A DNA stretch of 64,000 bases from Nicotiana tabacum (lineage: Eukaryota; Streptophyta; Magnoliopsida; Solanales; Solanaceae): positions 156,537,436 through 156,601,435 of the forward strand of contig NC_134087.1 of assembly GCF_000715075.1 (NCBI RefSeq). Reading direction: 5' to 3'. Below, piece after piece: positions 15,546 through 63,656 of the stretch. Every line of letters starts with the position of its first letter. The first letter of the stretch is position 1. Position numbers and translations under genes: made by a program. The notes below the pieces were generated by a model that was not told the origin of the DNA, did not search any database, and was given only the letters and a program-made list of their open reading frames with translations.

Positions 15546-15584
15546 CTACATATCCTGGGCTGAACAGGAATCAGGTCAATGTAG
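15546..15584 (-). other. Conserved hairpin module, copy B3 (next to the 3' LTR)
   Basis: On the minus strand it reads GAACTAC, then TGACCTGATTCC, and ends ATATGTAGG. The outer stem CTACA/TGTAG and inner stem TCCTG/CAGGA are both perfect. It starts about 130 nt before the 3' LTR, matching the place of copy C2 in element C. Confidence 0.7.
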
Positions 15585-16157
15585 TTCGTGAAATTTTTGG
15601 TAGCTGGGACTACCGTGTGACTGTAGTGTTTGCTGTTGTTGTGCGCTGTTGTATGCTGCTGTAGGATGCTACTGCTCAACCGATCTCCCTGTTACATTGC
15701 TCAAAAAGGAAAACAAGAAGCTAAGCTAGACTGAGGATCATGAAATCCTGTCCATCTTCAACTTGTTCTTGCTGCCTTGCTTTCTTGTCGGCTAACGCTT
15801 TCCTCTGATGCCTTTATCTTGTGACTTTGGGAGATGACGCCGGTCCTTCGCTGACGTTTGAATGCCAGTTTTCATCACTTTGCTTGATTCGCTGGGAACA
15901 TGGCTTTCTTCTTTAAATCTTCCACTGGTTTCTTCAGTGGTATGACTCTTCATCAGTATTGTCCTACTGGGCATGTTACAATGTTTCCGAACTGCTTCTT
16001 CTGAGACGCGTTCTTTCTTCCTTTTGAATGTGCGCTTGCTTTGGCAGACTTTTGCTTCTTGGCGCTGGGGATTTTATTGTTTTTTCCTGCTTGGGGCTCT
16101 CTGTTGTAACCTTCCGTCTTCAGGTGGGGCTACTGATTCCAAACTCTAGAGCTAGAA

Positions 16158-16938
16158 GTATTCCCGCATTATACTGGTGGGCGACCTAGAACTTAAATGT
16201 ATTCCCGCATTATACTGGTGGGCGACCTAGAACTTAAAAGTATTCCCGCATTATACTGGTGGGCGACCTAGAACTTAAATGTATTCCCGTATTATACTGG
16301 TGGGCGACCTAGAACTTAAATGTATTCCCGCATTATACTGGTGGGCGACCTAGAGCTTAAAAGTATTCCCGCATTATACTGGTGGGCGACCTAGAGCTTA
16401 AAAGTATTCCCGTATTATACTGGTGGGCGACCTAGAACTTAAAAGTATTCCCGCATTATACTGGTGGCGACCTAGAACTTAAAAGTATTCCCGCATTATA
16501 CTAGTGGGCGACCTAGAACTTAAATGTATTCCCGCATTATACTGGTGGGCGACCTAGAGCTTAAAAGTATTCCCGCATTATACTGGTGGGCGACCTAGAG
16601 CTTAAAAGTATTCCCGCATTATACTGGTGGGCGACCTAGAACTTAAAATTATTCCCGCATTATACTGGTGGGCGACCTAGAACTTAAAAGTATTCCCGCA
16701 TTATACTGGTGGGCGACCTAGAACTTAAAAGTATTCCCGCATTATACTGGTGGGCGACCTAGAACTTAAAAGTATTCCCGCATTATACTGGTGGGCGACC
16801 TAGAACTTAAAAGTATTCCCGCATTATACTGGTGGGCGACCTAGAACTTAAAAGTATTCCCGCATTATACTGGTGGGCGACCTAGAACTTAAAAGTATTC
16901 CCGCATTATACTGGTGGGCGACCTAGAACTTAAAAGTA
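16158..16938. repeat. Tandem array, about 19 copies of a 41-bp unit
   Basis: The unit begins GTATTCCCGCATTATACTGG and ends CTAGAACTTAAAA. Copies differ by few changes (CGC/CGT, GAAC/GAGC, AAAA/AAAT), and one copy lacks a G. The homogeneity shows recent amplification or ongoing unequal exchange. There are no unique spacers between units, so it is not a CRISPR array. Confidence 0.95.
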
Positions 16939-17689
16939 TTGAAATTGCTTCCCCGTTCTTCCGAGAAAATTTTCGACAATTGGCAGAAAATTTTCTGCCC
17001 CGGTTTTTGGTGACTTCCCTGGCGTTGCATCTTGCTGCCATTGTCAATTCTTTGTTCTCCTGCAATAGACAAAAGGATTTAGTCAGTTTTAATCGTGGTG
17101 GTAGAGGGTGCCTTTCCGGCGAGCGATTTTTCTCTCTTCCCCTTTTCTTGCTCTATGTCCCCATAATCGATTAACGGGCAGAGTTGCCTGCTGGGGGGGG
17201 GTCTCTAGCTTGCTGGGGATTGGCTTTCAATTTATCCCCTTTTCTGCTTTCTCTTTAAACGCGTGATGTGGGAGTCTGCTTCTAACTCCCGAAACCACTC
17301 CCTTTTGGAGCTTACTTCTTCCAACATTTCCGGGCACAATCCCTGCATTGCCCGGGACCGGCCTTCAAGACTGTTTGTATTATCATGCATTGGGATGAAT
17401 TCCCCTTCGGTTTCTGGTAGTAAGCTTTGAAAAATCCTTTCAAGATACATTTTAGGAAAAGAAATAAAGATATGGAAAAGGAGAAGATCTTTCTGAACGA
17501 ATATTTTGGTGGGAGAAGAAACTCAAAAGAACTTATCTGGAGGATACAACTGGTCCCCGTGATCATGACGTGCACCATAGATTCCCGACCCAGTCTATTT
17601 GTATCAATCGATTTGCCCGATGGTCTGACTTGCTGGGGATGATAAAGGAGTGTCCGTTTCGGATGTTGTAGCTTTTGCTGATCTGTCTT

Positions 17690-17880
17690 GTCGCCTCATA
17701 GTGCCCTTCGAGGGGTTTTCACTAATGAGACTCTCTCGTTTCTCTCATCTCCCGGCGCCTTATGGTGCCTGTGAAGGTTTTCACCAATAAGACTCTCTCA
17801 TTTCATATCCCTCATCTTACATCGCCTCTCGGTGCCTGTGAAGGTTTTCACCGATAAGACTCTCTCATTTTATTTCTTTC
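17690..17880. repeat. Three diverged tandem units in element B 3' UTR
   Basis: Three copies of a unit of about 70 bp contain GTGCCTGTGAAGG, TTTTCACC and TAAGACTCTCTCATTT. It is an older, smaller array than the 41-bp one. Confidence 0.75.
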
Positions 17881-18313
17881 GAGGATCCGGGGTGTTGTAG
17901 ATACGACCCTCTCTTCCGGGGATTCTTTTGACTATCAACTCATTCCCAGTCTTACGATCCTCTTCTTTGCTGGGGATCAGTGTATTATTCTCGGCCTTAT
18001 TTGCCGGATTTGGCATCTCTCGAACATTGATCGGGAGGTCTTTTGGATGTTGATGTTGGTTTTGGTGTGGGATTGAAGAAAGGCTATAAAAATGAAAACA
18101 ACTTGAAGGGTGATGTGCTACAACTTTTGGAATCAAACCTTTGTTGGAACTTAAAACATAACCTCTACCCCAGTTTTCTTGCTTGGGGAATTTATTTTTT
18201 TACGCTTATGTTGAGTTACGTGCGTTACGCACATTGTGCTATATTGTGCACACTATGTACATTATGCATCCTATATTTGCTATGATGCATACTATGACCG
18301 AGCCGTGAGGCGC

Positions 18314-18349
18314 CTACGTATCCTCTTTGAGGAATCAGGTCAAATGTAG
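18314..18349 (-). other. Conserved hairpin module, copy B2 (after pol)
   Basis: Minus strand: GAACTAC, TTGACCTGATTCC, then GATACGTAGG. The outer stem is CTAC/GTAG (18346-18349 with 18314-18317) and the inner stem is TCCTC/GAGGA around AAA. It lies about 280 nt after the pol stop. The flanking CTCGGTCAT also matches elements A and C. Confidence 0.7.
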
Positions 18350-18370
18350 TTCCTACGGTTTTATATTCCT

Positions 18371-18452
18371 TGATTTTTCTTTTCTTTCTTTTCATTTTCT
18401 TTTCTTTTCTTTTCCCTTTTCTTTTCCTTTCTTTTCTTCTCTTTTATTTTTC
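18371..18452. repeat. Pyrimidine-rich low-complexity tract
   Basis: Repeats of TTTTC/TTTC on the plus strand, which are purine-rich on the element's sense strand, lie just downstream of pol. Confidence 0.9.
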
Positions 18453-18629
18453 ATATCTTTCCCATTAGTGATTCCAAAAGAGGGGTATGAAAGAATAACT
18501 TAAGGCTCAAAAGGGGGAAGCAAGGGTTAAACAGTGTTTGGGTATAAGAAAGAATTGCCTCCATCATCTCATTATTCAACAAATGCCAAATACAAACAAA
18601 TAAACCAAAAATTGCCATAATTAAAGAAA

Positions 18630-21600
18630 TTACGCATAATATCTCTTGACTGCATCTGAATTGATAGCCATGTCGACACATCTACCTTCGACATCTGTCA
18701 AACACAAAGCACCATTGGCCAATACTCTGGTCACGATATAAGGCCCTTGCCAATTTGGGGCGAATTTGCCTTTTGCCTCGACCTGATGTGGGAGGATCTT
18801 CTTCAATACCAGCTGCCCTACTTCAAACTTCCTGGGGCGCACCTTTTTATTATACGCTCTTGCCATTCTCTTCTGGTACAACTGACCATGGCACACTGCT
18901 GCCAATCTTTTCTCATCTATCAGGCTCAACTGTTCCAATCGAGCCTTGACCCATTCATCATCATCAATCCCGGGTTCAGCGACAATTCGGAGGGACGGAA
19001 TTTCGACCTCCGCTGGTATCACGGCCTCAGTTCCATACACCAACAAATAAGGAGTTGTGCCTATGGAAGTCCGGACGGTAGTGCGGTAACCCAACAAGGC
19101 AAAGGGTAATTTCTCGTGCCATTGTCTGGACCCTTCCACCATTTTTCGCAGTATCTTCTTGATATTCTTATTGGCTGCTTCGACTGCTCCATTTGCCTTA
19201 GGACGATATGGGGTGGAATTGCGGTGTGTAATCTTGAATTGTTGGCATACCTCTCTCATCAAGCTGCTATTAAGATTCGCACCGTTATCCGTGATGATCA
19301 CTTTTGGGATCCCAAATCTGCAGATGATATGGGAGTGAACAAAGTCCACCACTGCCTTCTTGGTTACTGATTTGAAGGTTTTAGCCTCAACCCATTTGGT
19401 GAAGTAGTCAATGGTCACTAGAATGAACCTATGACCGTTGGACGCTGCTGGCTCGATGGGCCCAATGACATCCATGACCCATGCTACAAACGGCCAGGGT
19501 GCTGACATCGTATGTAACTCTGTTGGCGGAGAATGAATCAAGTCTCCGTGTATCTGGCACTGATGGCATTTCCTCACGAAAGTGATACAGTCGTGTTCCA
19601 TGGTGAGCCAATAACACCCTGTTCGAAGGATTTTTCTTGCCAATACATATCCACTCATGTGTGGCCCACAAACTCCAGCATGTACTTCTGCCATAACCGT
19701 TGTTGCCTGCCTAGCATCTATGCATCTCAACAATCCCAGATTCGGGGTTCTTTTGTACAATATTCCCCCACTGAGGAAGAAACCATTCGACAACCGCCGG
19801 AGGGCTCTTTTTTGGTCTCCAGAGGCATGTTCTGGATATATCCCCATCCTGAGGTATTCCTTGATATCATGAAACCAGGGTTCGCCATCTGCTTCTTCTT
19901 CTATGGCATTGCAGTAGGCGTGCTGATCACGGACCTGGATGTGTAGAGGATCAACATACATTTTGTCAGGGTGGTGCAGCATTGATGCCAAGGTGGCCAA
20001 GGCATCCGCAACCTCATTGTGAACTCTCGGGATGTGTTTGAACTTTACCGATCGAAATTGCTTGCTCAGATCATGCAAGCATTGTCGGTATGGTATGAGC
20101 TTTAAATCTCGTGTTTCCCATTCACCCTGAATTTGATGTACCAAGAGGTCCGAGTCTCCCAAGACCAAGACGTCTTGGACATCCATGTCGGCAGCCAAGC
20201 GCAGACCCAGAATGCAAGCCTCATATTCGGCCATATTGTTGGTGCAATAGAAGCGTAGTTGAGCCGTAACAGGATAATGCCGTCCTGTTTCAGAAATGAG
20301 TACTGCTCCTATTCCAACCCCTTTTGCGTTTGCAGCTCCATCGAAGAAAAGCTTCCAACCCGGTTCCTCGGGTAATTCCAACTCATTCGTATGCATCACC
20401 TCTTCGTCAGGAAAATACGTTCTTAAGGGCTCGTATTTTTCATCAACGGGATTCTCTGCCAAATGGTCTGCCAGTGCCTGGGCTTTCATGGCCGTCCTCG
20501 TTACGTAGATGATATCAAACTCCGTGAGCAGAATTTGCCACTTTGCCAACCTTCCCGTGGGCATAGGTTTCTGAAATATATATTTCAATGGGTCCAAACG
20601 GGATATGAGATAAGTAGTATATGAAGACAGGTAGTGTTTCAACTTCTGAGCTACCCAAGTTAGGGCGCAACATGTTTTCTCGAGTTGAGTGTACTTGACC
20701 TCATGCACTGTGAATTTCTTGCTAAGATAGTAGATGGCCTGTTCCTTCCTTCCTGTGTCGTCATGTTGCCCCAGTACACAACCAAATGAATTTTCCAAGA
20801 CTGTCAGGTAAAGGATTAGGGGTTTCCCGGGCTTAGGCGGGACCAATACGGGTGGATTAGACAGATACCCTTTGATTTGGTCGAAGGCTTCCTGACACTC
20901 TGCTGTCCAACCTACCGCAGCATCCTTTCTCAACAGCCAAAATATGGGCTCACAAGTTGCTGTGAGTTGAGCGATGAACCTGCTGATATAATTGAGTCTA
21001 CCCAGCAAACTCATTACCTCTATTTTGTTCCTTGGCGGTGGCAAATCTCGGATGGATTCAATTTTGGATGGGTCTAACTCAATCCCCCGTCGACTGACGA
21101 TGAATCCTAGCAACTTTCCTGATGGAACCCCGAATGCGCATTTGGCCGGGTTAAGCTTGATATCATACCTCCGGAGTCTTTGGAAAAATCTCCTTAGGTC
21201 TGCTACATGGTCCTCCTGATGCCAAGATTTGATGATCACATCATCGACGTACACCTCAATTTCCTTGTGTATCATGTCATGAAACACCGCAGTCATTGCT
21301 CGCATGTATGTTGCCCCAGCGTTCTTTAACCCGAACGGCATTACCCGATAGCAGTAGGTTCCCCATGGCGTAATAAACGCTATCTTCTCAGCATCCTCCT
21401 CATCCATTAGGATCTGATGATAACCTGTATAGCAATCCACAAAGGATCCGATCTCGCGCCCTGCGCAATTGTCGATCAAGATATGAATGTTGGGTAGCGG
21501 AAAATTGTCTTTGGGACTTGCTTTGTTGAGGTTGCGGTAGTCAACGCACACCCTGATTTTTCCATCCTTCTTTGGGACTGGTACCACATTGGCCAACCAC

Positions 21601-22130
21601 TCGGGATACCGAGTGACCCGAATGACCTTCGATTGCAATTGCTTAATCACTTCTTCTTTAATCTTCACGCTCATTTCTGTTTTAAATTTCCTTAGTTTTT
21701 GCTTGACCGGAAGGTATGCCGGGTCAGTGGGTAATTTGTGAACCACTAAATTGGTGCTTAATCCAGGCATATCATCATATGACCAGGCAAAAACATCTTT
21801 GAATTCCCTGAGAGTTTTGATCAATTCTGTTCTGACATTCGGCTCAATATGGATGCTAATTTTGGTCTCTTGGACGTTATCAGCGTCTCCTAAATTCACA
21901 GCCTCGGTGTCATTTAAGTTAGGCTTGGGTTTCTCTTCAAATTGGCACAGTTCTCTGTTTATTTCTTCGAAGGCTTCACCTTCGTCACATTCAGATTCAT
22001 CGTCACAAACGACCTTTTGCATCATTGAGTCGGTTTCAGATTGATTTATTAGACTAGCTCGAAGATCCGCTGTGCATGCCATGTCATTAGAACCAGTAAA
22101 AAGAGAACTGTTCAGAAAGAAAAAGAACAA
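18630..22130 (-). CDS. pol: Element B pol: RT, RNase H, second RNase H, integrase
   Basis: An uninterrupted 1,166-residue frame. RT spans about 180-345, with D197 and YVDD at 294-297. The first RNase H (about 405-530) looks degenerate, with Glu in ENSFG where the first catalytic Asp is expected. The second (archaeal-type) RNase H at about 590-715 keeps D597, E635, D659 and D709. Integrase has H817, H824, C855 and C858 (zinc finger), then D887, D948 and E984 (a D-35-E spacing), and a GPY motif near 1129. Dual RNase H is a Tat-lineage mark. The first ATG at 22130 lies inside a predicted intron; by splicing the coding exon starts at 22107, so the first eight residues are probably never made. The protein would copy the element's RNA and integrate it in the nucleus. 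Confidence 0.93.
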   Translation of the reverse strand: MFFFFLNSSLFTGSNDMACTADLRASLINQSETDSMMQKVVCDDESECDEGEAFEEINRELCQFEEKPKPNLNDTEAVNLGDADNVQETKISIHIEPNVRTELIKTLREFKDVFAWSYDDMPGLSTNLVVHKLPTDPAYLPVKQKLRKFKTEMSVKIKEEVIKQLQSKVIRVTRYPEWLANVVPVPKKDGKIRVCVDYRNLNKASPKDNFPLPNIHILIDNCAGREIGSFVDCYTGYHQILMDEEDAEKIAFITPWGTYCYRVMPFGLKNAGATYMRAMTAVFHDMIHKEIEVYVDDVIIKSWHQEDHVADLRRFFQRLRRYDIKLNPAKCAFGVPSGKLLGFIVSRRGIELDPSKIESIRDLPPPRNKIEVMSLLGRLNYISRFIAQLTATCEPIFWLLRKDAAVGWTAECQEAFDQIKGYLSNPPVLVPPKPGKPLILYLTVLENSFGCVLGQHDDTGRKEQAIYYLSKKFTVHEVKYTQLEKTCCALTWVAQKLKHYLSSYTTYLISRLDPLKYIFQKPMPTGRLAKWQILLTEFDIIYVTRTAMKAQALADHLAENPVDEKYEPLRTYFPDEEVMHTNELELPEEPGWKLFFDGAANAKGVGIGAVLISETGRHYPVTAQLRFYCTNNMAEYEACILGLRLAADMDVQDVLVLGDSDLLVHQIQGEWETRDLKLIPYRQCLHDLSKQFRSVKFKHIPRVHNEVADALATLASMLHHPDKMYVDPLHIQVRDQHAYCNAIEEEADGEPWFHDIKEYLRMGIYPEHASGDQKRALRRLSNGFFLSGGILYKRTPNLGLLRCIDARQATTVMAEVHAGVCGPHMSGYVLARKILRTGCYWLTMEHDCITFVRKCHQCQIHGDLIHSPPTELHTMSAPWPFVAWVMDVIGPIEPAASNGHRFILVTIDYFTKWVEAKTFKSVTKKAVVDFVHSHIICRFGIPKVIITDNGANLNSSLMREVCQQFKITHRNSTPYRPKANGAVEAANKNIKKILRKMVEGSRQWHEKLPFALLGYRTTVRTSIGTTPYLLVYGTEAVIPAEVEIPSLRIVAEPGIDDDEWVKARLEQLSLIDEKRLAAVCHGQLYQKRMARAYNKKVRPRKFEVGQLVLKKILPHQVEAKGKFAPNWQGPYIVTRVLANGALCLTDVEGRCVDMAINSDAVKRYYA

Positions 22131-22286
22131 GACAAAAATTAAAATGAGACAAAAGAAGAGAACTTTATTAAATTTGCGGGATAAAAGGGTTCACACTTTT
22201 ACAAAACGAAAGTAAAATTTGGATTACACCCTTGAATAATCCGATCAAACAAATAAACAAACAAAACATTAATCAAAGCCTACTAC
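22108..22286 (-). other. Predicted 179-nt intron between gag-pro and pol, element B
   Basis: The donor is TTG/GTAGTA at 22287/22286, overlapping the gag-pro stop codon. The acceptor is a long pyrimidine tract ending CTGAACAG/TTC at 22108/22107. A possible branch point (TTTAAT) lies about 30 nt upstream of the acceptor. Splicing removes the stop and joins gag-pro to pol in the same frame, with the junction codon split 2+1. A spliced intron at this place is established for Ogre elements. Element A has a 180-nt counterpart at 39480-39659. Confidence 0.8.
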
Positions 22287-25200
22287 CAAGACTCCCCTCG
22301 GACAGGAAGAGGAGTAACCGTCCAATTGTTGGTCTTGGCCTCAGGCCCCACAAATTGTATCTCTGCTCTGCTGGAACCTTCTCCAGCTTCCACCATACTG
22401 ACATCCGCGAATAGTCTCTCAAAACTCTGATTCAGGTCTTCATTTATGCCGATCAAAGGTCCTCGAATCTTCGGGATTGCTGACCCCTTGGCACTTGCTT
22501 TAACAAAAGACCTTGAGAGGCGTGGCACTGGTTTAGGCAGAAACCAGACCCTCTTCTTCATTTTTCGCGCTTGCTTCCTGTCTGCTGCGGTTGGTTTGAA
22601 CCCCAACCCGAAGGTTTCCAGATTCTTAGGAAGGGAAACAGGTTGGACTATCCCTTGAAGCTCAACTCCCAGGCCTTTTCCCGGCACAAATCCATTACCC
22701 AGCATTTCTGATACCATCATGACTGTTGCGGCAGCTACCCTAGGGTGCGGGATGATTTCTCCCTCAGAAATTTTGTTGGCCGACCCTGTATCGAGAATCT
22801 GATAGAACCAAGGACCTTTGTCATCAGTGGTCTCTATGAAAGGCACAATGGTTCCGCTCATGGTGCATGTTGTATCCTCGCCGTGCAACACGACCTCTTG
22901 TCTTTCCCACTCGAACTTCACTGTCTGATGTAGGGTGGAAGGCACCGCTTTAGCTGCATGAATCCAGGGTCGTCCTAACAGCAAGTTGTAAGATACCGTG
23001 GCGTCCAATACCTGGAATTCCATGGTAAACAGGACCGGACCAATGGTCAGTTCAAGTACAACATCCCCCACAGTGGCTGTTCCGTTTCCGTCAAACCCCC
23101 GGACACAGATGCTATTCTCCCGGATTCTTCCACGGTCAATCTTTAACTGGTCCACGGTGGATAATGGACAAATATTGGCGCTTGAGCCGTTATCCACCAA
23201 TACTCGGGTTACCACCGAGTCTTCACATTTGACAGCTAGGTATAGAGCTTTATTGTGCTCTGTTCCTTCCACCGGCAGGTCATCATCTGAGAATGTCACT
23301 CTGTTCACCTCGAAAATCTTGCTGGCAATGGTTTCCAGGTGGTTTACAGAAATCTCACTGGGTACGTGAGCCTCGTTCAATATCTTCAACAGGGCCCGAC
23401 GATGTTCCTCAGAATGGAGGAGTAATGACAATAGTGAGATCTGGGCCGGTATTTTTCTCAGCTGCTCAACCACAGAATAATCTTGTACTTTCATCTTCCT
23501 CAGGAATTCTTCAGCCTCTTCTTCAGACACTGGCTTCTTGGTTGCCACTGGGTTGGTTTTTCTTAGCTCCACCGGAGCAAAACATCGACTTGATCGAGTC
23601 AGCCCTTGCGCTTCACAACTGACTTCTTCCACCTGTTTTCCTTGATACGTCACCACTGCCTTTTCATATTTCCAAGGCACAGCCTTGCTGTCAATCATCG
23701 GTAGTTGGACCACAGGCTTTATGGTCACCCGTTCTCTACATACCCCTTTCAACATGACTGCCGGTGTGGGCAGGATCCCTGGTATTACCAACTTGCTTGG
23801 CTCGGGTTTGCTTGCTATGACGGACGGGCTCTTCCCCAATATCACTACCGGCTTGACGCCTTCTCCCTGCGACTGTACACTCATTCCTCCACTGGTTAAG
23901 ACTTCTTTCGGGGCGGCTTGGATCATCATCACTGTTTGTGAGGGTTTTCTTAATTCTCCTCCCTCACACACCAACTCAATCATGTGAGTTTCGTGGTGCG
24001 CTGGCAGTGGGTTTTGGTTGATGTTAGGAGCCTCCGGTGTCTGGACCTCGATCTTATTGGTGTCAATAAGATCCTGTATGGCATGCCTTAACTTCCAGCA
24101 CTTCTCGGTATCGTGCCCGAGCATCCCTGAACAGTATTCACAACTGATTGAACGATCCAAATTCTGAGGCGGGGGATTTGGTTCCCGAGTATGGACAGGA
24201 CTAACCAAACCCAATTGCCGCAGCTTATGGAACACAGCGGTGTAGGTTTCTCCCAGTTCGGTGAAGGTTCTTTGCTTCCGCAACCTGTCATTCCTAGCAT
24301 CTGGATTTCCCCGGAAACCTGCCCCTGAAGGGTTTCTATATGCCCTTGGTTGAGGGTAGGTGTTTTGTGGCGGTGCATATATGTTCTGGGGAGCCGGTGC
24401 GCGCCATTGTGGGCGAACCGGAGGCTGAGTGTATACCTGGGCTTGGTGTACGGAACAATGTGGTTCTCGAGGTGGATAGAAATTTTGTGGTGGGTTGTAT
24501 GGGTAGTTTGACCTGTGAGGCCTGGGTTGGTTGTAATGTGGCCTGCCAGCCCTGGACCAACTGCCTGCCTCGATCGTGGCAACCTCTTCTTTCTTTCTTC
24601 TCAACGCACCTCCCGTGCCGCTTTGAATAGCCTGGGTTGTGGCTTTAAGTGCCGAATAGTTCAAGATCTTGTCCGACCTCAAACCTTCTTCTATCATGAC
24701 CCCAATTTTGACCACCTCGTTGAAAGATTTTCCAACCGTCGTCACCAAGTGACCAAAGTAGGTTGGATCCAATGTCTGCAAAAAATAGTCCACCATCTCT
24801 CCCTCTCTCATGGGAGGATCGACTCTAGCTGCTTGTTCTCTCCAGCGGAATCCGAACTCGCAAAAACTTTCCCCGGGTTTCTTCCTAGTTCTCAATAACG
24901 TGAGACGGTCAGGGACTATCTCTAGATTGTACTGGAAATGACCTGCAAAAGCCTGCGCCAGATCATCCCACGTGTACCACCTGCTGAAATCCTGCCTGGT
25001 ATACCATTCCAGTGCAGATCCGCTCAGACTTTGGCCGAAATAAGCTATCAAAAGCTCATCCTTGCCTCCTACCCCTCTCATTTTGCTACAGAATCCCCGC
25101 AAATGTGCCATGGGATCACCGTGCCCTTCATATAAATCAAACTTGGGCATCTTGAACCCAGCCGGGAGTTGGACATCTGGGAAAGGGCACAGATCTTTGT

Positions 25201-25741: not shown

Positions 25742-26294
25742 GCTTGATGCTATCGGTCCTTTGGATCTGGTTTGGTATGAATGTGTTGCCAGAATTCTTT
25801 AACAACTAACTGTCTGGTATCAGACAACCATAAACTTTGTTAGTGTTAGAGCTTAACAAATTTGATCATAACACATAGAGGATGCAATGCACCTAGGTAG
25901 TTAACCGTTTCTACATGCTTTGCTTCAAACCACATGCGTCATCCCGGCTTGTTCATTCGTCTCTTTTAAAGTATTTTGCGAAACTCTGTGTTTTATTTTA
26001 TTTATATTTTCTTTTCTTTATTTATTAAAAGTGGTCGAATCTTATGGGGATTGCCTACGTATCACGTCCCCGCGTGAATCAGACCAGGCGTAGTTCTGCC
26101 TCAAAGTAAAGACACATAGAAATTCTTCCGGAGTCACTTAATTTCATTATCAAAATTTGCTATTACACATTGCTTCAAACAAAATAGCAACAGTACAGAC
26201 TCCACGGTTCTTTGACCCTATTTGATTGAAGGAAAATGGAAAACAACATATGGGAAAACATCAAAGCTCAACTAAAACAAGACTCGACCAGAGG
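25742..26294 (-). other. Spacer between ORF1 and gag in element B
   Basis: No gene is present. It contains hairpin module copy B1 (26055-26093). Close upstream of gag is a stretch resembling the bases before gag in element A (ACCA...AGATCCA). Confidence 0.6.
26055..26093 (-). other. Conserved hairpin module, copy B1 (between ORF1 and gag)
   Basis: Minus strand: GAACTACGCCTGG, TCTGATTCACG, then GATACGTAGGCA. The outer stem is CTACG/CGTAG. The inner stem is TCACG/CGTGA, a different sequence from the other copies but still perfectly paired. This is the only copy outside a 3' UTR. Confidence 0.65.
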
Positions 26295-28627: not shown

Positions 28628-28672
<45 letters not shown>

Positions 28673-29475: not shown

Positions 29476-29479
29476 GAGC

Positions 29480-43141: not shown

Positions 43142-43197
43142 GCAGCCTTATGGGTTCGGTCATATCATAATAAAATTTCCATTTCCCCCAAGATCAG

Positions 43198-47838: not shown

Positions 47839-47841
47839 TAA

Positions 47842-52752: not shown

Positions 52753-52760
52753 TATAAAAG
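52753..52760 (+). promoter_or_regulatory. TATA box of element C LTR
   Basis: TATAAAAG, 2.2 kb into the LTR, in the position corresponding to element A's TATA box. The predicted start is near 52785. Confidence 0.6.
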
Positions 52761-53529
52761 GCATTACCCTTTTTCACAAACAGATATACTACAGACTTCA
52801 CAATTCACAATCTCTTCTGAACTCACACTCATAGTATTATGTCTTCCTATTTGCACTTTGGCTTTTGCAAGTCTACTGCTTTTTCTACTTATTTCTTCGA
52901 AACTAGTATGTCCTGATTTAAGTTTCAGCATCACCCACAATGTGTTTACTTAAAGCTTTCTGCATCTATGTCTACTTTACTACTTCTGCAGAGTTAAACA
53001 CTTAAACTAGCATGTTGATTTCCTTTTGCTTGTTTCTGCTATGAATCCCATTCCCTATATCCCTATGTGTGATGTTCCCCTTTCCCTTTCCCCCTTTCAG
53101 AATTCTGCATTTACACTCTCTCTTAGTTCCTAAGTTCTGCCCCACTCTTGAGAGCCTTGCCTTGGGACCTTGAGTTCCCTCTGAACTTGGACACCTGAGG
53201 GCTAGCCTTTCTACACTGCACTTTGGCTTAATATGGTGATATATTTGGGTGTGAGCACTGCCCGGAGTTCTTATGAAACTCTTAGGGAACTCTGATACAC
53301 CCAAGTGGGAGAAAGGCTTTGAAACATGATCTTTGGAGTTGGTTTACTTCATATTTCTGATAGGAAGTCTAAATCAGGCTCTTCTTGGTTGTAATTTTCA
53401 ACTTCTGATATACTTTTTTTACTTTATTTTCTTTCTGGACTGTAATAATTTTTTAATAAACTCTCGGGGATGGATAGTGAAAAGGGAGGGTTAATTGTCT
53501 ATGCAAAAAAGGGGTAGATAAACTGCCTA

Positions 53530-54160
53530 TAGGAATTTATGATTTTTGCATTCTCATATAGATAATCTGCCTATAGGAATCTTACATTCTCATATAGATA
53601 TCATGTTTATAAGAATTTCTGCATTCTCATATAAATACCATGTCTATAAGAATTTTCGCATATCACATAGATATCCTCCCTATAGAAATACTGCACTTTC
53701 ATATGTAGATACTATGCCTATAAGGAATTCTGCATTCATATTGATATCCTGCCTATAGTTAAATTTCTGCATCTCTCATATAGATACCATGCTCATAGTT
53801 AACTGGAAATCCGAATCCTGCATATGCATCTGTCACTGGGCAAGCCTGTTATAGGGCTTAAATAACTAACTGTATCTAAATATCATGTTCATAGGCTTAA
53901 ACGATGTACTTCATTTAGATGCCATGCCTATAGGATTTCTGCACTCTTGCTATGTCTGTAAAAGTGTTTAAAATCGACAACGCATAAAAATCATGCCTAT
54001 AGGAGCTTTAATCGAATCTGAACCGCTTCACTCGCTTATAAGTCTAAAACCAGTAGCAATGACGAATGATCTTTTGTCAAAACTCGTCTTTCCTGAATAA
54101 CTGACAACCTTTTTTCTAAAATTAGTATACTTCATCTTTTCTGAAACCAGTAGACATCAT
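53530..54160 (+). repeat. Dispersed CCTATAG motif cluster, element C LTR
   Basis: About twelve copies related to AGATATCATGCCTATAGG with irregular spacing, 0.8-1.4 kb downstream of the TATA box. It matches the cluster in element A. Confidence 0.75.
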
Positions 54161-55028
54161 GCCTATAGGTCTTCGTCTAACACTTAGGCAAGCCATATGA
54201 TAGTTTATAAACTGAATAAGATTTTTATATGCTACAACCATCAGGCAGGCTTGACTCGGGCTTCTTATCTGAAATATGCAATAAATCAGTCTGCCCCAAC
54301 TGTTAAGTTTAATCAGACCCTAATCAGTACTTGTAAGACATGCTAAACTTTATGCTTTTCTTTGGTTTAAAGAGGTCTGTTTGAGCCTTATTTGTTTATG
54401 TGTTTTCCCATATTTTCTATATATATGCTTTTGCTTGTCACTTTAGTATTTTTACCTTTGAAACCATAAATAAGCCCAACATACCTCCCCTTTAGGATTA
54501 GTAGTCCCAAATGCCTCTAGGACCGATAGAATTGGGGCGGGTAATAGCATGCAATAAGTAAACGAGACCATTTCGCACTTTAATACCTCAACGGGGTAGG
54601 GAAGGGTAGATATGGATATGATGACCACGCGGTAACATATCGTGTAGCTCCTCATTGAGGAGTGATTACCGGATGTTGTGTGAGTGATCCATATTATTAA
54701 TAAACCTAGGACCCCCCTTCCTTTTGTTTTCTTTATTTTTTTTAATTTTTTTTTTACCATTTCTTTTAATCAACTCCTTTTAGTTCATTTTTCTTACTTT
54801 TGTTTATTTGTAACCATTACGTGAAAATCCCCTCTTATTTGAAGTCTTTATTTTCCTATGTGTTATTTGCACTTAAGTCACAACAATAATATCTTGGCCG
54901 GGAAGCACACTAGTGGATCTTGAGGGGTGCCTAACACCTTCCCCTTGAGATAATTTTGAGCCCTTACCCAATCTCTGGTTGTTCAAATCAAACCTTCCTT
55001 AGTGTCCTAATGCACTCAAATCATTAGG

Positions 55029-55038
55029 TGGCGACTAT
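55029..55038 (+). other. Primer-site-like sequence inside U5 of element C
   Basis: TGGCGACTAT, nine of ten bases of the true primer site start, 86 nt before the LTR end. Confidence 0.55.
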
Positions 55039-55127
55039 TCAATTAAAACCCAATTCCTAAAAGGGAACGAGTTGTCCTCCCAAATGTCATGAAGCCGATT
55101 TCTCGAGAAAAAAGGGGCACGACAGCG

Positions 55128-55144
55128 TGGCGACTCTGCTGGAG
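55128..55144 (+). promoter_or_regulatory. Primer binding site of element C (tRNA-Arg type)
   Basis: TGGCGACTCTGCTGGAG, three bases after the LTR end. It is the least mutated of the three sites. Confidence 0.85.
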
Positions 55145-55474
55145 ATATCTTTTAGTCGATGGTGTAGTCGACGGTTCCGTGTCTTTCCCTCTTGAGTTGT
55201 CCGCTCAAGGGTACCAGTCTACAACCCCCCATAGAAACCTTACTCTGTTTAATTGTGCATGCATCATGGTCAAACTTAGCCGAGTCAGTTATGTTGTCTA
55301 CATAATGACTCTTTAAGATAGCCTTTTCCAAAGTCCACTGGGTTTTCCAAAAACCCAAACGGACACTACCACGTTTTGTGCATTTATTTGGAGAACTAAA
55401 TGCTTTTATGCCAATTACTTGTATTTAATAGTAGAATATGGTGGGGGTAAGGGCCTAACCCTTTTGTCTTGCAG
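55145..55474 (+). other. Element C leader before ORF1
   Basis: Non-coding and alignable with the element A leader. It ends CCCTTTTGTCTTGCAG, a good acceptor-like sequence directly before ORF1. Confidence 0.6.
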
Positions 55475-56890
55475 AAACAAGAGGCGCGAAGTCCTCAGAT
55501 TCGGCATGGTCACAAACATCCACCCAAGGTTGCTAAGCTGATGGGAGGATCTTCATTCCAGTGATCAGACTCTTGTCCGGAAATACCTAGGAAATCTACA
55601 TTCTCTCCTGGAGGTCCAACCCAACAAAAAAATCATAGAAGCTGCTACTCTATTCTGGGACTGTGATAGGTTTGTGTTTCGCTTCGGAGAGATTGAGATG
55701 ACACCCTTGCTAGAGGAAATAGGAGGATTGGCCGGTATACCATGGGAGACCCCGGATTTGTTAATGCCGGAAAATTGCAAGGGTAGGGGTTTCCTCAAAA
55801 TGACGGGCCTAAAGAAGAATCCATACTTGACATGTTTGAAGGAGTCTTACATTCCATGGTCACTAAAACATTGATAGACGGAATTGGTGGACAACCATTT
55901 AGCATAGTGCCCATGATCATCGCAAAGATATACCGAGCCTTGGAAAAGTGTCAACAAGGAGCCCCACACTTCGAGGGATGCAACTTGCTACTCCAACTCT
56001 AGCTCATGCAGTATCTTCAAAGGGGTGAATATCGGCAAGAGATTCAGCGTAGAGACTAGGACGATCATATAGCCTTCCATCAACCAAGGCGAATGAACTA
56101 CGTGCCCAACATGTTTTCTCAGCCAGAAGATGCCAAGGGATGGATGGAGCTGTTTGAAAATCTGACTGAGGATCAAGTACAATGGATGTTCGAGTGGTTC
56201 CCTACTGAAGAGTTCATCGCCCGATCTATGGACGCACCATTTTTGATACTGATCGGTTTTAGAGAAACCTACCCTTATGTCTCTCTCCGGTTTATGAGAC
56301 AGGGTAGTAGGAAGCAGGTTATACCAAGGGTAGACAAGATGAGTCACTTACGGGCTGAGTTCCAAGTTGATGACCATCCTTATAAGTGCCAAGTTCAACA
56401 TATGTGGCATTACCAGTTCATCATGGGAAGAGATAATATCGAACCTGACAAATACCATGCTGGCTGCACCCCATACTATTCAGGATGGCTGGAGGATAAT
56501 CACAATGGTCTGGGCCAACCTGTATTTTTTCGAGGTCACAGAATCATCGATGAAAGGGCTGAAGCACAGGCCAAATACAATCAACTGTGCAAGAGGATTC
56601 GGGAATGTGAAAGAGAGCACCGAGAGATTCAAGAAGCCCAACAAAAACTGATTGAAGAGTGGAAAGACATGGCTGTCAGTGCCAACAAGCGACTAGGATA
56701 CCTGGAACGAGGTTTAGTGGAGCTGGAAAGGATGTTTCTCAAGAGGATCGAGGACTTCCAGAATGCTAGAGGAAACGAGGTTGGACACCTGGCCAGGGCC
56801 TACCTGCTGCTGGGACTTCGCGAGCTGGTGAAGCTGTTTGATGGGGCCAAAGATGCCGAGTCTGGGGAAGGTCCTTTTGGGACCAAATAG
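55475..56890 (+). pseudogene. Element C ORF1, C-terminal 265 residues still open
   Basis: The best-preserved ORF1 of the three. From 56093 to 56890 the frame is open: NMFSQPEDAKGW, QVQWMFEWFPTEEF, HMWHYQF, YHAGCTPYYSGW, then a coiled coil of about 90 residues and the ending SGEGPFGTK. Upstream, PMIIAKIYRALEKC and FEGCNLLLQL are interrupted by TAG at 56000-56002 and 56057-56059, and the first part is in another frame. The function is unknown; coiled coil and position next to gag suggest a structural or RNA/particle role, which is inference. Confidence 0.8.
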
Positions 56891-57298
56891 ATAGGAGTTT
56901 TCTTTTGCTTTATAAAATGTAATAAGGCCAATGCCACTAGTGACATTTTATTCCTTGTTATTTAGTGTCGATTTGGGACTCGTCTACTTTTTATCAATAA
57001 AATGAGGCATTTAGCATTCTAAGTTCTCCAAATCAACTTGTCGCTAGTCCTACCTCGAGCATAAAGAGGTTCTTAAATAGGACGCGATTTACATTCTTGC
57101 ACTATATGTTTAATTATCGCAACATTTTCTTATAATCCTCACTGACTTGTTACCTTTTTGTTTTTACTTTTTGTTTATTTACTCCCCTTCCCAAAGGTTA
57201 GTTCATGTACACTGGCATCGTCATCACATTCCACAAGATCTAAGGGAACTTCACCCACTCCTCCTCCTAGTCCTATCAGAAGCAGGAACAAAGGAAAG
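56891..57298 (+). other. Spacer between ORF1 and gag, element C
   Basis: Non-coding, aligned with 35658-36064 in element A, with the same CACTGACTTGTTACC plus T-rich tract. No gene. Confidence 0.55.
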
Positions 57299-60130
57299 AT
57301 GGAAGATTTGAACAACACCAAAAAGGAAAACTCAACTGAACAGGTAGAGGTCACTCAAGGTGCTCAAGTCTCCAAAGAAAGTGCGTTCCAACTCGAGCAG
57401 AAACTGTTGAAATTTCAGGAGGAACTTACCAGGTTTGGAATCTGGTAAACTTGTCATTTTCCCTCACCACTCCAGATATCAATTTTCCAAACGCTCAGAA
57501 CCCCACGCCTCCACAAAACATCCCAAAACCACAAAACCATCCCGCTCATCACCACCACTGCAATACATGTCATACATCCAGCAATACTCCACTGCTCATC
57601 TCAGAAGCTCTGAATTCCACAAATGATCATTTCCACGCCCACCATAACACCCCCATCTATGTGGAAACCATGCCACACTCCCCCCAACCTTTCTCAAGCA
57701 CACCCGAATCTGATGATAAAGACTTACTCATTAGAAACCTGGGTGCAGAACTCAAGAAATTGACTAGTCGAATTCAGGGTGTCGAACGAAGCAAGGGGAT
57801 TGAAAGGTTGAACTACGAAGATCTTTGCAGACAACCGGATGTCGAACTACCCGAGGGGCACAAACCTTATAAGTTCGAGATGTTTGATGGTATAGGGGAT
57901 CCGAGAGTCCACTTGAAAACATACTGCGACAAGCTGGTCGGAGTAGGGAAAGATGAAAGGATTCGCATGAAGATTTTCATGAAGAGTCTGAAGAGAGATG
58001 CTCTGTCTTGGTACATTAGCCAAGACCCGAAGAAATGGTCGAACTGGGTGAGTATGGAATCCAACTTTATGGACAGGTTCAGGTTCAATACAGAAAATGC
58101 GCCAGATGTGTTCTATATCCAAAATTTAAAGAAGATGCCCACAAAAACATTCTGTGAGTACGCTACTCGTTGGAGATCAGAAGCTGCTAAGGTCAGACCA
58201 GCTTTAGAAGAAGAACAGATGAAAAAGTTTTTCGTCCGGGCTCAGGACCCGCAATACTATAAAAGGCTGATGTTGACTGAGAGCCAAAAATTTTCCGGCA
58301 TTATCAAGTTAGGGGAAAGGATTGAAGTAGGCATCAAAAGTGGTATGGTTACGAATTTTGAAGCCTTACAAGCTACCAATAAGGCTTTACAATCTGGTGG
58401 TACATCCAAGAAAAGGGACGTGAGTGCCGTAATGGTTGCACAAAGAGCCAAATCCTCTCAATTTGATTGGGATCCCAAAGGATCAATCAGTTTAATCATA
58501 GAAGGTGACGAACCAAAGAAGCCAATAGTCACCCTCCATTCGATTGGGATCCCAAAGGATCAATCAATTTAATCACAGAAGGTGACGAACCAAAGAAGTC
58601 AATAGTCACCCTCAATTCGATTGTAGTACAGATTCAACCTTCTGGGGATGCCGAGGTAAACATGTCTATACCACTTGAGTTTGAAGCACCACTCCCCACA
58701 AAGACACCAACACCAATTGAGGTCGAGTTTGGGTCTCCAGCAAACACACCTGCACTGTTTGAAGTTACAGTTTTACCCTCCAAAATACATGCTCCGTTCG
58801 GAGTAAAGGTGCCCATCCCAGTAACAATGTCGGCCATAACACCGTTCCATACAAATTCCATACCTTGGGATTACACAGCCGAGGCGAGAAGGAAAGAGAA
58901 AGCTAAATTCGGGGAAATAGTTGCGGCACAGGGTATGACAAAAACCGGCATGGTTTATACTCCGGAGCATTTAGCTGAGTCCAGTAAGCAGGCCTCTGGT
59001 CAACCGACCATCACTGAAACCAGGCCCGATGATCTCTGGAGAAAGATACAAGCCAAGGAATACTCAATCATTGATTAGATGAACAAAACACCGACACAGA
59101 TTTCTATCCTAGCTTTGCTGCAAAGTTCTGATGCACATAAGAATGTCTTGTTGAAGGTGCTGAGTGAGGCATATGTACCAAGCAACATCACCCGAGGAGA
59201 AATGGAAAACCTAGTAGGGCAGGTATTGGAAAGCCACAAGATCAATTTTCATGAAGATGAGCTGCCACCAGAAGGGTTAAGTCACAACAAAGAATTGCAT
59301 ATCACCGTATAATGCGAAGATTATTTTATCACTAGGGTACTAATTGATGGAGGTTCCAACCTCACTATTTGTCCGTTGGTAACACTTAGAACATTGGGAA
59401 AGGGGCTGCATGAAATCAAGGACCGGGCCATCAACGTCAAAGCTTTCGACGGTTCCCAAAGATCCACCATTGGGGAAATCATCCTATGTTTGAAAATGGG
59501 ACCTACTTGGTTCGACGTTGATTTTCAAGTTATAGACGTGTCGGCATATTACAATCTGCTGTTGGGACGGCCATGGATTCATGCCACTGGGGACTTAGCG
59601 TCAATACTACATCAAGCGGTGAAATTTGAATGGAACTACCAAGAGGTGATCATTCACGACGACGGTAGAAATCCCATATACAGTCGTCAAACCATCCCAG
59701 CAATTGGAGGAAGGAGAAAGATAGGTAGGGAAACCTATCACCACATCAAGCGAGTCAACGCCGTTGACAAAGACAAATGGTGGGACAACAAAATTGAAAG
59801 CATATTGAACTAGAGGGGGCAAGGGACATGGCAAGAACCTCCAAGGAATCGCCAAGCCTATCAAACTGAAGAAACATGGCACCACTTTCGGTCTGGGATA
59901 TGAGTATACTTGGTAGGAGCTCAACAACTGGTCTCCACCACGGTGCGGTCCATACTACCTACTGGAGCAGCCAATACCACATCTGGAGAAGACTTTTCGA
60001 CCAGGCGATGTCATCTATGGGTCAGAAAAAGAGGAAGCACTGGCAGTAGTGAGGAATTTGTTCATAGAAGATGATGACATGGATTGTTGTGTCAATTTCG
60101 AGGAGGAGGGGGAGGAAGGCCCTTATACAG
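57299..60130 (+). pseudogene. Element C gag-protease, broken and internally deleted
   Basis: Gag begins at the ATG at 57299 with a coiled-coil start, then shifts frame at about 57445. The capsid domain is open to 58440 (RDALSWYISQ, FCEYATRWRSEAAK). The Pro-rich and zinc-knuckle segment present in A (about 37320-37900) is missing, so the capsid runs straight into WDPKGSISLI. A 77-bp direct duplication at 58465-58618 shifts the frame. Protease near 59330 keeps LIDGGSN and LLGRPWIHA but lies behind stops at 59076 and 59310. The G-patch-like motif near 59815 is damaged, and the block after it (TTFGLGYEYTW) is kept. Confidence 0.85.
58465..58618 (+). repeat. 77-bp tandem duplication within element C gag
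   Basis: Two near-identical copies start at 58465 and 58542 (GATTGGGATCCCAAAGG). The length is not a multiple of three, so it breaks the frame. Confidence 0.9.
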
Positions 60131-60179
60131 GCCGTAAGCCGAGGAGCATGCCTCAATAATTGGACTATCAGAACCACCA

Positions 60180-61556
60180 GAGCCTGGACGAGACTGAGAT
60201 TGTTAACCTGGGAGATGCAGAAAATATCAAAGAAACTCGGATCAGTGTTCATTTGTCACCGTCAGAAAAGGAAGAATACACAGAATTTCTGAAGGAATAT
60301 GAGGACATATTCGCCTAGTCATATGATGACATGACTAGTTTAGGTACATCTATTACGGCGCACAAACTACCAACTGATCCGACATGTCCACCGGTGAAAC
60401 AAAAGCTCAAAAAGTTTAAACCCGATATATGTCTAAAATCCTCAGGGTAGTAGAATATCCAACATGGCTAGCCAACATTATGCCGGTGCTGAAGAAGGAT
60501 GGGATGGGAAGGTCAGAGTCTGTGTCGATTGCCGGGATCTCAATCGGGCCAGTCCAAAGGAAGACTTCCCCTTGCTGAACACACACATCCTGATTGATAT
60601 GAGTTGCAATCATTTGTAGATTGTTTCGCTGGATATCATCAGATCTGGATGGATGAAGAAGATGCTGAGAAAAGGATTTCATTACGCCGTGGGGGATGTA
60701 CTGCTACATGATGATGCCATTCGGGTTAAATAATGCAGGGGACACCTATATGAGGGCCATGACTATTATCTTCCATGATATGATACACAAGGAGATTGAG
60801 GTGTATGTAGATGATGTCATCATAATGTCCAAGAAAGCCACTGACCACATGGAAAATTTGAGGAAGTTCTTCAACAGACTGAGAAGGTACAACCTGAAAC
60901 TGAATCCCGCAAAATGTGCATTTGGGGTTTCTGCCAAAAAACTACTTGGGTTTATCAAACACAAGAATTCTATAGCCTACAGAACTCAGATGAACGGAGC
61001 CGTAGATGCCACCAACAAGAATATCAAGAAGATACTAAGGAAAATGATAGAGAAGCATAAGATCTGGCACGAGAAGGTATCATTTACTTTATTGGGGTAC
61101 CGCACCATAGTCCGCACATCGACAGGAGCAACCCCCTATATGCTGGTTTATGGTACAGAGGCAGTCATTCCCGCCGAGCTGCAAATTCCTTCCTTAAGGA
61201 TCATACAGGAAGCAGAGCTCGACGACACAGAATGGGTGAAGAGTCGTTACGAGCAACTAGCTCTTATAGACGGAAAGAGAATGAATGCAGTTTGCCACGG
61301 TCAGCTCTTTCAGAACAGAATGTCCAGAGCCTTCAACAAGAGAGTCAAGCCGAGACAATTCACACCAGGGAAGCTGGTGTTAAAGAAAATTTTTCCGCAT
61401 CAAGATGAAGCCAAAGGGAAATTCTCTCCCAGCTGGCAGGGTCCGTACATGGTTCACCGGGTTCTAACAGGAGGAGCCGTCATACTCGCAGAAATGGACG
61501 GAGAAGTTTGGCCATAGCCGTTCATTTCAGATGCAGTCAAGCGATATTATGTGTAA
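60180..61556 (+). pseudogene. Element C pol remnant: RT joined to integrase by deletion
   Basis: The N-terminal part (LDETEIVNLGDAEN, EYEDIFA then TAG) and RT fingers are broken by several small losses. From 60696 a 273-residue frame is open: RT palm with EVYVDD, up to KLLGFI, then directly the last part of the integrase core (MNGAVDATNKNIKK, where the catalytic Glu is now Asp) and the GPY region. RT thumb, both RNases H, the zinc finger and two of three integrase acidic residues are gone. Against A about 1.85 kb is deleted (40625 to 42470). The end DAVKRYY matches A and B. Confidence 0.88.
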
Positions 61557-61584
61557 TCTTTATGCTTTTCTTATGTAATTTGAA

Positions 61585-61624
61585 CTACGCCTGACCTGAT
61601 TCCTGTTTAAAAGGGGATACGTAG
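61585..61624 (+). other. Conserved hairpin module, copy C1 (after pol)
   Basis: GAACTACGCCTGACC, TGATTCC, then GATACGTAGGCAGCC. The outer stem is CTACG/CGTAG; the inner stem is weak (TCC/GGA). It lies 28 nt after the pol stop and is nearly identical to A1. Confidence 0.65.
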
Positions 61625-62264
61625 GCAGCCCTATGGGTTCGGTCACAATTCAATAAAAATTTCCATTTCACCCGCTATTAGAAAATGGGGCAGAATTTTG
61701 AGGAGGACCATCAAAATTTCGAAGTCGATTCCAGCCATTTATCTTTAACAACTGTCAGGAGCAGCAACCCAATAAACTGGGGCAGTATTTTGAAGAGGAC
61801 CCGCAAAATTCCGGAGCAAGAGAAGTTGCAATGTCTTGAACCATGTCGCAGTCGTCGGTTCCTCTAAAGAAAACTATTCTTAATTATGTACTTACATTAT
61901 GCATTTACTAAATCATGCATGTTTATTACTAAATTGCCTTGTTTAGCAACGCTACCCTATTGATATGTACAGTATCTCCAGATCAAAGCCGAGCAGGTCA
62001 AGCAAAGCCAGCGGGGATACGAACTAACTTTTCCCCCTTTACAAACTCATGATTTTTCTTTGGATGCAGGCACTTGAGTTGCAAAATCATCAAATATACT
62101 ATATGTTCACTAATAAAGTTCAAGAATACAACTCTCTGAACCGTTGCACTTGCTCGCAACTGTTATCCGCATAACAGTGTCCCCTAGCAGGCACAATATC
62201 CCCAGTAATCACGATACCGTAATCCACTATCAGCTAAGAAAACTCTATTGCCATTTGCCATTTT

Positions 62265-62755
62265 TACTTCCTGTATAAGGCTACCATTCTGCCTTCCGAG
62301 ACTAAGCTCTGTCTCCATCTGCATTTTCTGCATTGCATAAAGCTACCATTCTGCCTTACGAGATTAAGCTCTATCTCCATCTACATTATCTGCATTACAT
62401 AAGGCTACCATTTTGCCTTCTAAGGTTAAGCTCTACCTCCATCTGCATTTTATGCATTGCATAAGGCTACCATTCTGCCTTCCGAGGTTAAGCTCTACCT
62501 CCATCTGCATTTTCAGCATTGCATAATGCTACCATTTTGCCTTCGGAGGTTAAGCTCTACCTCCATCTGCATTTTTTGCATTGCATAAGGTGACCATTTT
62601 GCCTTCCGAGGTTAAGCTCTACCTCCATCTGTATTCTTGCATTGCATAAGGCTACCATTCTGCCTTCCGAGGTTAAGCTCTACCTCTATTTGCATTCTTG
62701 CATTGCATAAGGCTACCATTCTGCCTTCTAAGGTTAAGCTATATCTCCATCTACA
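62265..62755 (+). repeat. Tandem array of about eight 61-bp units
   Basis: The unit contains AAGGCTACCATTCTGCCTTC, GAGGTTAAGCTCTACCTCC and ATCTGCATT. Copies differ by 5-15% by eye, older than the array in element B. Confidence 0.9.
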
Positions 62756-63130
62756 TGGCTGAAAAATCGCCACCTCTACATTTGCATGGCTAAAAGATTG
62801 CCACTTCATTTATATCTTGCATGGCTAAAATATCGCCACTTCATTTACATCTTGCATCAGCTGAAAGATCGCCACTTCATTTATACCTTACAGCGGCCGA
62901 AAGATTGTCACTTCATTTATACCTTGCATCGGCTGAAAGATCCCCACTTCATGGCTGAAAGATCGCCATTTCATGGCTAAAAGATTGCCACTTCATCTTG
63001 CATGGCTGAAAGATCGCCACTTCATTTACATCTTGCATCGGCTAAAAGATCGCCACTTCACTTACATCTTGCATCGGCTGAAAGATCGCCACTTCACTTA
63101 CATCTTGCCTCGGCTGAAAGATCGCCACCT
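62756..63130 (+). repeat. Tandem array of about ten 36-bp units
   Basis: The unit resembles GGCTGAAAGATCGCCACTTC followed by ATTTACATCTTGCATC, with some shortened units. It is adjacent to but unrelated to the 61-bp array. Confidence 0.9.
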
Positions 63131-63616
63131 TCTGTATCTCATGGGCTAAAAGATTGCCAATCTGTCCAAAGGCATCATTGTTCGGAGGCACGATCTTTAT
63201 AGCCCGAGAACGCCATGCCATGGCCTGAGGACTCCTTTTATCTTTTGAATATCATTATTTAGAGGCATCATAGTTCGGAGGCATCATTATCATAGCCCGA
63301 GAACATCATTTCATGGCCTGCGAATCCTTATTATACGCTTCATGGACCAGGACGTCATGGTTTGAGGACGTCATCCTAATCGTCCAAAAACAACATTCAT
63401 GGTCCAACGGGAACTTGCATCACGTTTAAAATTTTCGCACAGTATACACTTCTATTACTTATTTGCAGGTAAACTGGAAAGCAACGGTCGTCTCAGCAGG
63501 AGCAATCCCACTCCAGTTCTCGCAACCCTGGCAGATTTTAACCGTCCATCCCAACCCAAAATAGCGTGTCCGTCTTGGAAAACCTCCATCGGCATATTCC
63601 GCCGACGGATCCTGAA

Positions 63617-63656
63617 CTGCATATGGCCTGACTCCTGTAAGACCAAGGATATGTAG
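63617..63656 (+). other. Conserved hairpin module, copy C2 (next to the 3' LTR)
   Basis: GAACTGCATATGGCC, TGACTCC, then GGATATGTAGGCAA. The outer stem is CTGCAT/ATGTAG (one G-T wobble) and the inner stem is TCCT/AGGA. It ends 115 nt before the 3' LTR, matching copy B3. Confidence 0.65.

Follow-up and report, generated by a model that had tools for sequence, protein, structure and literature searches.

The window analysed here is a stretch of 64,000 nucleotides (nt) from tobacco, Nicotiana tabacum (contig NC_134087.1 of assembly GCF_000715075.1, positions 156,537,436 to 156,601,435 of the forward strand; all coordinates below are those of the window). It carries three Tat-type long terminal repeat (LTR) retrotransposons, nested in or neighbouring one another, which we call A (plus strand), B (minus strand) and C (plus strand), and these hold six copies of a short module. 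A first-pass annotation had described the copies as non-coding hairpins of about 45 nt inside Tat-type elements. All six blocks read at the positions it gave, each on the sense strand of its own element and in an internal part without a long open reading frame (ORF). The module is longer than was thought, however, at 55-66 nt, and ends 19-27 nt 3' of the original end points. As predicted from its letters, it is a pseudoknot of four helices in the order P1a-P2a-P3-P1b-P4-P2b. We suggest, tentatively, that the six copies are one conserved structured module of Tat/Ogre genomic RNA, serving in cis as a transport or stability element, a reading to which we give a probability of about 40%.

The sites, all on the sense strand, are of three kinds and not of one. 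All three elements have a copy behind pol, 28-280 nt from its stop codon: A1 (43102..43162, plus strand, 61 nt from P1a to P2b) begins 33 nt after the pol stop of element A, C1 (61585..61645, plus strand, 61 nt) 28 nt after that of element C, and B2 (18295..18349, minus strand, 55 nt) 280 nt after that of element B. Both elements with a visible 3' LTR start have another copy shortly before it, B3 (15519..15584, minus strand, 66 nt) at 104 nt and C2 (63617..63682, plus strand, 66 nt) at 89 nt. Only B1 (26032..26093, minus strand, 62 nt), in which P2 reads TGGTC/GACCA, lies in an ORF1-gag spacer, that of element B, 201 nt past the last ORF1 stop and 290 nt ahead of the first gag-pro ATG. A purine-rich array, (GAAAA)n at 18375-18450 on the minus strand, stands immediately 5' of B2 and could be a second plus-strand primer site.

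Element B (11308..33587, minus strand) sits in the 5' LTR of element A, close to where that LTR ends, and has both LTRs, TG...CA ends and a target duplication, GGGTT. Its LTRs, aligned with each other and read at their termini, lie at 29480..33587 (5' LTR) and 11308..15414 (3' LTR), both on the minus strand; each is 4.1 kb long, and they are 99.3% identical. The probable primer binding site, TGGCAACTCTGCTGGGGA, is at 29458..29475 (minus strand), and sites of the same type with one mismatch occur at 33636 in element A and at 55128 in element C. ORF1 (26295..28175, minus strand) is one frame with internal stops, the last at 26295, and matches the plant mobile domain, just at the Pfam cut-off, and DUF7745. 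The gag-pro frame (22283..25741, minus strand; 1152 amino acids from its ATG) is named by position and size, and Pfam gave only a sub-threshold G-patch match within it. The pol frame (18630..22190, minus strand) encodes reverse transcriptase, RNase H, a second RNase H-like domain and integrase, the second RNase H being the RVT_3 match at 615-733, flanked by RT_RNaseH and integrase. According to passages of PMC6317226, Ogre and Retand elements are marked by an additional RNase H domain that follows the first one and precedes integrase, and 57% of Ogres have a plant mobile domain ORF. Element B shows both features, and we class it as Ogre-type for that reason.

Elements A and C align with each other, and the pol of both also aligns with element B; their reading frames are broken. 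The 5' LTR of element A starts at 6643 and is split by element B near its end; the internal coding part (33636..43101, plus strand) comprises a primer binding site, an ORF1 remnant, gag and pol, with pol ending just before 43102. Element C runs from its 5' LTR start to its 3' LTR start at 50520..63771 (plus strand), with a 5' LTR at about 50520-55125 and a 3' LTR that begins at 63772 and runs off the window. The domain scan of these two elements, which left out the ORF1 of A and the pol of C as separate queries, found RVT_3 in element A ahead of an integrase zinc domain, the latter below cut-off, and DUF7745 below cut-off in the ORF1 of element C. Between the pol end of element A and the start of element C lie about 7.3 kb (43237-50520) with no recognisable 3' LTR start; the insertion of C follows, and therefore any pre-LTR module of element A is out of view.

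The 3' regions hold further repeats. Tandem arrays at 16156-16940 (element B) and 62275-63128 (element C) lie between the two 3' modules of each element, with units of 41 nt (19.2 copies), 62 nt (7.8 copies) and 36 nt (10.5 copies). Another recurring unit is present in five plus-strand copies 3' of the post-pol module in elements A (43198-43245, 43289-43336 and 43381-43428) and C (61682-61729 and 61774-61821). Its consensus, AACTGGGGCAGAATTTTGAGGAGGACCCTCAAAATTCC, combines a purine tract with a possible stem, AATTTTGAG/CTCAAAATT, on the 3' side of that tract; it resembles the run of purines, GAGGGGCAGC, found at the 3' LTR of element B. Directly after C2, at 63683-63715 (plus strand), a further TTCGGTCA may be what is left of a 3' module end that was duplicated.

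In the fold that we propose, three of the helices (P2, P3 and P4) meet in a three-way junction, and the fourth, P1, joins the 5' flank (P1a, CTACR) to the linker that connects P3 with P4 (P1b, YGTAG). P1 crosses P2, which makes the whole an H-type pseudoknot. P1 is the outer stem of the first-pass annotation, and the sequences claimed for it are present in all six copies: CTACG/CGTAG in B1, A1 and C1, CTACA/TGTAG in B3, four pairs (CTAC/GTAG) with an A-C mismatch in B2, and CTGCAT/ATGTAG with one G-U in C2. The spacing of 28-30 nt claimed for its arms stands if stems of four and six base pairs are counted; between arms of five base pairs, counted by hand, it is 29-30 nt except in B2, where it is 26 nt. 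P2 is found in all six copies, TGACC at 1-3 nt after P1a pairing with GGTCA that starts 14-22 nt after P1b. B1 carries two compensatory changes in this helix (TGGTC/GACCA) and C2 one G-U (TGGCC/GGTCA). That only a short link, from P1a to P2a, spans a P2 of five base pairs is usual in H-type pseudoknots. The inner stem, P3, is paired in B1, B2, B3 and C2, as claimed; in C1 it has four pairs, one of them U-G, and in A1 one mismatch. P4 lies between P1b and P2b and ranges from AATC/GATT in B1 and AGCCC/GGGTT in C1 to eight pairs, AACCTTTG/CAAAGGTT, in B3; it is one register off in B2 (GCC/GGC) and has an unpaired position in C2. Both stems of the original hairpin are thus real, but P2 and P4 had been overlooked, and a nested two-stem hairpin was rejected as incomplete, since such a model has no place for TGACC/GGTCA or for the fourth stem. 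Among the unpaired columns nine do not vary, namely GAA before P1a, TGA after P2a, TA before P1b and G after P1b, and these probably make tertiary contacts or form a protein-binding surface.

Several lines of evidence favour this fold. Over the 20 pairs of the four helices, 93.2% of 118 alignment cells are paired, a share that falls to 18.3-38.7% once the partners are shifted by 1-3 columns, and P2 is paired in 100% of its cells. Nine pairs are changed on both sides, a number reached in only one of 500 shuffles. RNAalifold, with no structure supplied, picked P2, P3 and P4; the program is unable to draw P1 together with the crossing P2. The pair counts and RNAalifold bear out the earlier suggestion that the paired changes point to selection on RNA folding. 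The lowest-energy folds of B2 and B3 are P2/P3/P4, those of A1, B1 and C1 differ in part, and that of C2 differs largely. A descriptor of shape without sequence was too loose, with 145 plus 123 raw matches; after thinning, C1 and A1 ranked first and third on the plus strand and B3 and B1 first and third on the minus strand, and B2 and C2 were not among the matches listed. A coding function was rejected, with stops in all three sense frames inside A1, B1 and C1, and B2, B3 and C2 open in one frame each only, judged by eye. A search run with a bacterial setting found no tRNA gene.

The copies can also be recovered from one another. In a leave-one-out profile search, each copy was found from the other five, with E values from 3.6e-6 (B1) to 7.1e-18 (C1), and the best match in the window that is not a copy had an E of 0.21. 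The left-out copies scored 22.8-60.5 bits, compared with 7.3-7.8 bits for the best of 10 dinucleotide-shuffled windows. A covariance model, R1, was built from the six copies and run with filters off on both strands; the training copies scored 67.7-86.6 bits. It found no copy in the LTRs, in long ORFs, on the wrong strand or outside the elements over the 64 kb, in keeping with the sense-only distribution within Tat elements originally reported. A seventh match, at 13.4 bits (E 0.32), lies at 45935-46009 (plus strand) in the 3' region of element A and is probably due to chance, possibly a decayed copy.

Identity between modules is 54-91% (columns 8-77 of the alignment), and their scores in plain local alignment run from 16 to 92. 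The flanks are mostly unrelated. In 11 of the 15 copy pairs both 200-nt flanks fall within the range of 50 shuffles; the downstream flank scores slightly above it for B1/B3 (31 vs a maximum of 27), B1/C2 (25 vs 23) and B3/C2 (26 vs 24). Only A1 and C1, both post-pol copies of related elements, have clearly alignable flanks. Copies within one element share 60-75% identity in B and 66% in C, about as little as copies of different elements, which suggests that the different sites may be old.

Outside the window, the module has left few traces. Rfam at gathering cut-offs gave no match over the window, and at E values up to 10 a search around B3 and C1 gave weak matches only, far below cut-off; the other four copies were searched at gathering level. 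None of the DNA patterns of the module that were tried had a copy in the viral contig or genome contig collections, and a pol protein search of viral contigs gave nothing useful. The one open frame of B2 made a protein query possible, and its translation retrieved five short ORFs in metagenome contigs (three from JGI, two from ENA), all sharing GTTFDLIPQRGYVGASRL-(G/S)-H, which corresponds to the extent of the module. One of these, P0001, also matches the flank of B2; the flanks of P0002-P0005 differ from the query, and P0003 and P0004 are similar to each other. In all five, lysine, glutamate and arginine abound in the lead-in, which fits a purine-rich stretch like the one before B2. Eight module translations used as queries led to the same five ORFs, and the translation of B3 gave no match in the protein search. 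The identity seen in such hits is biased upwards, because they are selected for having words in common with the query. They support a wider occurrence of the B2-type module; amino acids do not show the bases, so they are no evidence of covariation. Among the literature matches listed (titles, abstract openings and passages of open papers, with the older subscription literature on Ogre elements not covered), none describes the module; those to the string TACGTAGG were set aside, the opened ones being unrelated gene primers and the remaining ones being judged by title. Rfam and this literature agree with the first-pass statement that no named element matches. To our knowledge, the fold and its repetition at three kinds of site are new, and structured cis-acting RNA in LTR elements is already known.

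Two known features of LTR elements lie close to the module in position. The hypervariable tandem-repeat 3' untranslated region (3' UTR) of Ogre/Tat elements is the region of the 3' modules, and the arrays of B and C lie there, but the 3' UTR accounts in the passages of PMC7004042 describe repeats and not a conserved structured module. A stem-loop exposing the polypurine tract is mentioned, for one LTR element and for human immunodeficiency virus, in part of PMC3601003, and such hairpins share with the module a place close to the 3' LTR. Those hairpins, however, form between the LTR and sequence 5' of the polypurine tract, whereas in the module both sides of the pairing are its own; it stands 89-104 nt ahead of the LTR and occurs far from it as well.

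The module probably acts as RNA, because it is sense-strand, untranslated and present in several copies with paired changes in four helices. What it would do as RNA can be read in several ways, and the strongest and most interesting rival to our reading is an exoribonuclease-resistant RNA (xrRNA), in which the 5' flank, held in the three-way junction, would close a ring that stops XRN-type 5'-3' exonucleases and yields stable 3' fragments or protects what lies downstream. The flaviviral xrRNAs described in passages of PMC5760640 have the same kind of architecture, a three-way junction with the 5' end paired into it, a pseudoknot and conserved junction letters, and they lie in the 3' UTR, doubled there in some viruses; the module likewise occurs behind pol and again before the 3' LTR. 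In the module, however, the partner of the 5' flank is the stretch that links the two hairpins, whereas flaviviral xrRNAs use another strand of the junction, and 4-6 base pairs are formed where two are described for the flaviviral RNA. The alignment showed no sign of a loop-to-3' pseudoknot, although it was not searched for one systematically, and Rfam gave no match. We consider such a block unlikely on balance, if the first alternative to be kept in mind. A more specific proposal is that plant LTR retrotransposons have in this compact pseudoknot of 55-66 nt, placed once behind pol and once before the 3' LTR, an exoribonuclease-blocking RNA of a new class, which would either produce stable 3' fragments of the element RNA or shield that RNA from plant XRN decay after small-RNA-guided cleavage; this seems to us rather unlikely. 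A packaging or dimerisation signal recognised by Gag at several places of the genomic RNA would account for the several sense-only copies and their conserved single-stranded letters. Packaging signals usually lie between the primer binding site and ORF1, and the covariance model finds no copy there in any of the three elements; moreover, since the presumed intron includes none of the copies, spliced and unspliced RNA would not be distinguished by them. This makes packaging quite unlikely in our view. A role in translation, as internal initiation or reinitiation between ORF1 and gag or as 3' UTR enhancement, draws on the placement of B1 between the last ORF1 stop and the first gag-pro ATG, but five of the six copies lie downstream of pol, with no ORF of more than 89 amino acids listed behind them in B or C, and the corresponding spacers of A and C have no detectable copy. 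By the usual rule, 28-280 nt from the pol stop is also too long and too variable a distance to stimulate readthrough, and we regard this function as very unlikely.

HDV-like (hepatitis delta virus-like) ribozymes are carried by retrotransposons, and the module has their helix order. They are nested double pseudoknots with P1, P2, P3, P4 and J4/2 (passages of PMC4908430 and PMC3774820), and P1 is about 7 nt, with P1' directly after L3/P3 (PMC3774820). In the module, by contrast, P1 has 4-6 base pairs, four letters separate P2a from P3, and two letters (TA) stand between P3 and P1b in all six copies. HDV-like ribozymes also have a J4/2 strand with a catalytic C and a constrained A; in the alignment, the J4/2 of the module consists of one letter (a C, replaced by T in C2; with P4 shifted by one register, B2 would have two), and there is no A-bearing strand. 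Core features (L3, J4/2 and P1.1) appear to be absent or different relative to the same passages, helix lengths and junctions differ, and membership of the HDV-like class was rejected on its core features; Rfam has no match either. Cleavage of genomic RNA in the 3' UTR should, we infer, also harm reverse transcription, and a self-cleaving ribozyme with this helix order appears extremely improbable. Finally, the module could be a conserved protein-binding site in DNA, or an inherited remnant with no function in RNA, as would fit the ordinary folding energies and the small number of sequences, six. The compensatory pairs in four helices in matching register, the constant strand and the mostly unalignable flanks speak for RNA instead, and we hold a DNA-level or passive origin to be highly unlikely.

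We therefore return to a role in transport or stability, which we prefer because LTR elements with known structured RNAs use them in that way and because a 22-kb element with a long 3' UTR should, we infer, need such help. The transport elements of musD (MTE), intracisternal A-particles (RTE) and type-D retroviruses (CTE), which serve RNA export and stability in animal elements, resemble the module in being structured cis-acting RNAs of LTR elements. They are set apart from it by another fold, by larger size (positions of the MTE reach nt 189) and by the animal TAP/NXF1 pathway.

Several results weigh against this reading, or against the conservation on which it builds. Plants are said to use TREX and not the TAP/NXF1 receptor of the animal elements (part of PMC12786077), and therefore only the general role could carry over; the module also lies outside the presumed intron, and its presence therefore does not single out unspliced RNA. 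In the ORF1-gag spacers of A and C the covariance model detects no copy. The covariation is thin, because it comes from six sequences in one window: that in P2 amounts to two pairs in one copy and one G-U in another, the columns of P4 are partly gapped, and the 15 further pair types are reached by 93 of 500 shuffles. Folding energies of single sequences are ordinary (z from -1.32 to +1.01, with 172 of 200 shuffles of C2 folding at least as well), as computed by a tool blind to the pseudoknot. In plain pairwise alignment some modules score no better than flanks (B1/B3 reach 16 in the module and 31 in the downstream flank), and therefore the signal, including the case of B1, rests on the profile test.

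If the module does serve transport or stability, a host RNA-binding protein would recognise the fold in the untranslated stretches behind ORF stops, and the bound module would let very long element RNAs be exported and kept from decay. A compact, recurring fold with defined pairs offers a concrete target for probing, compensatory mutation and reporters, and a covariance model of the module could help to mark Tat/Ogre elements in genome annotation. Ogre elements make up a large share of some plant genomes, 45% in Lathyrus sativus according to part of PMC7004042, and little is known of how their very long RNAs are handled.

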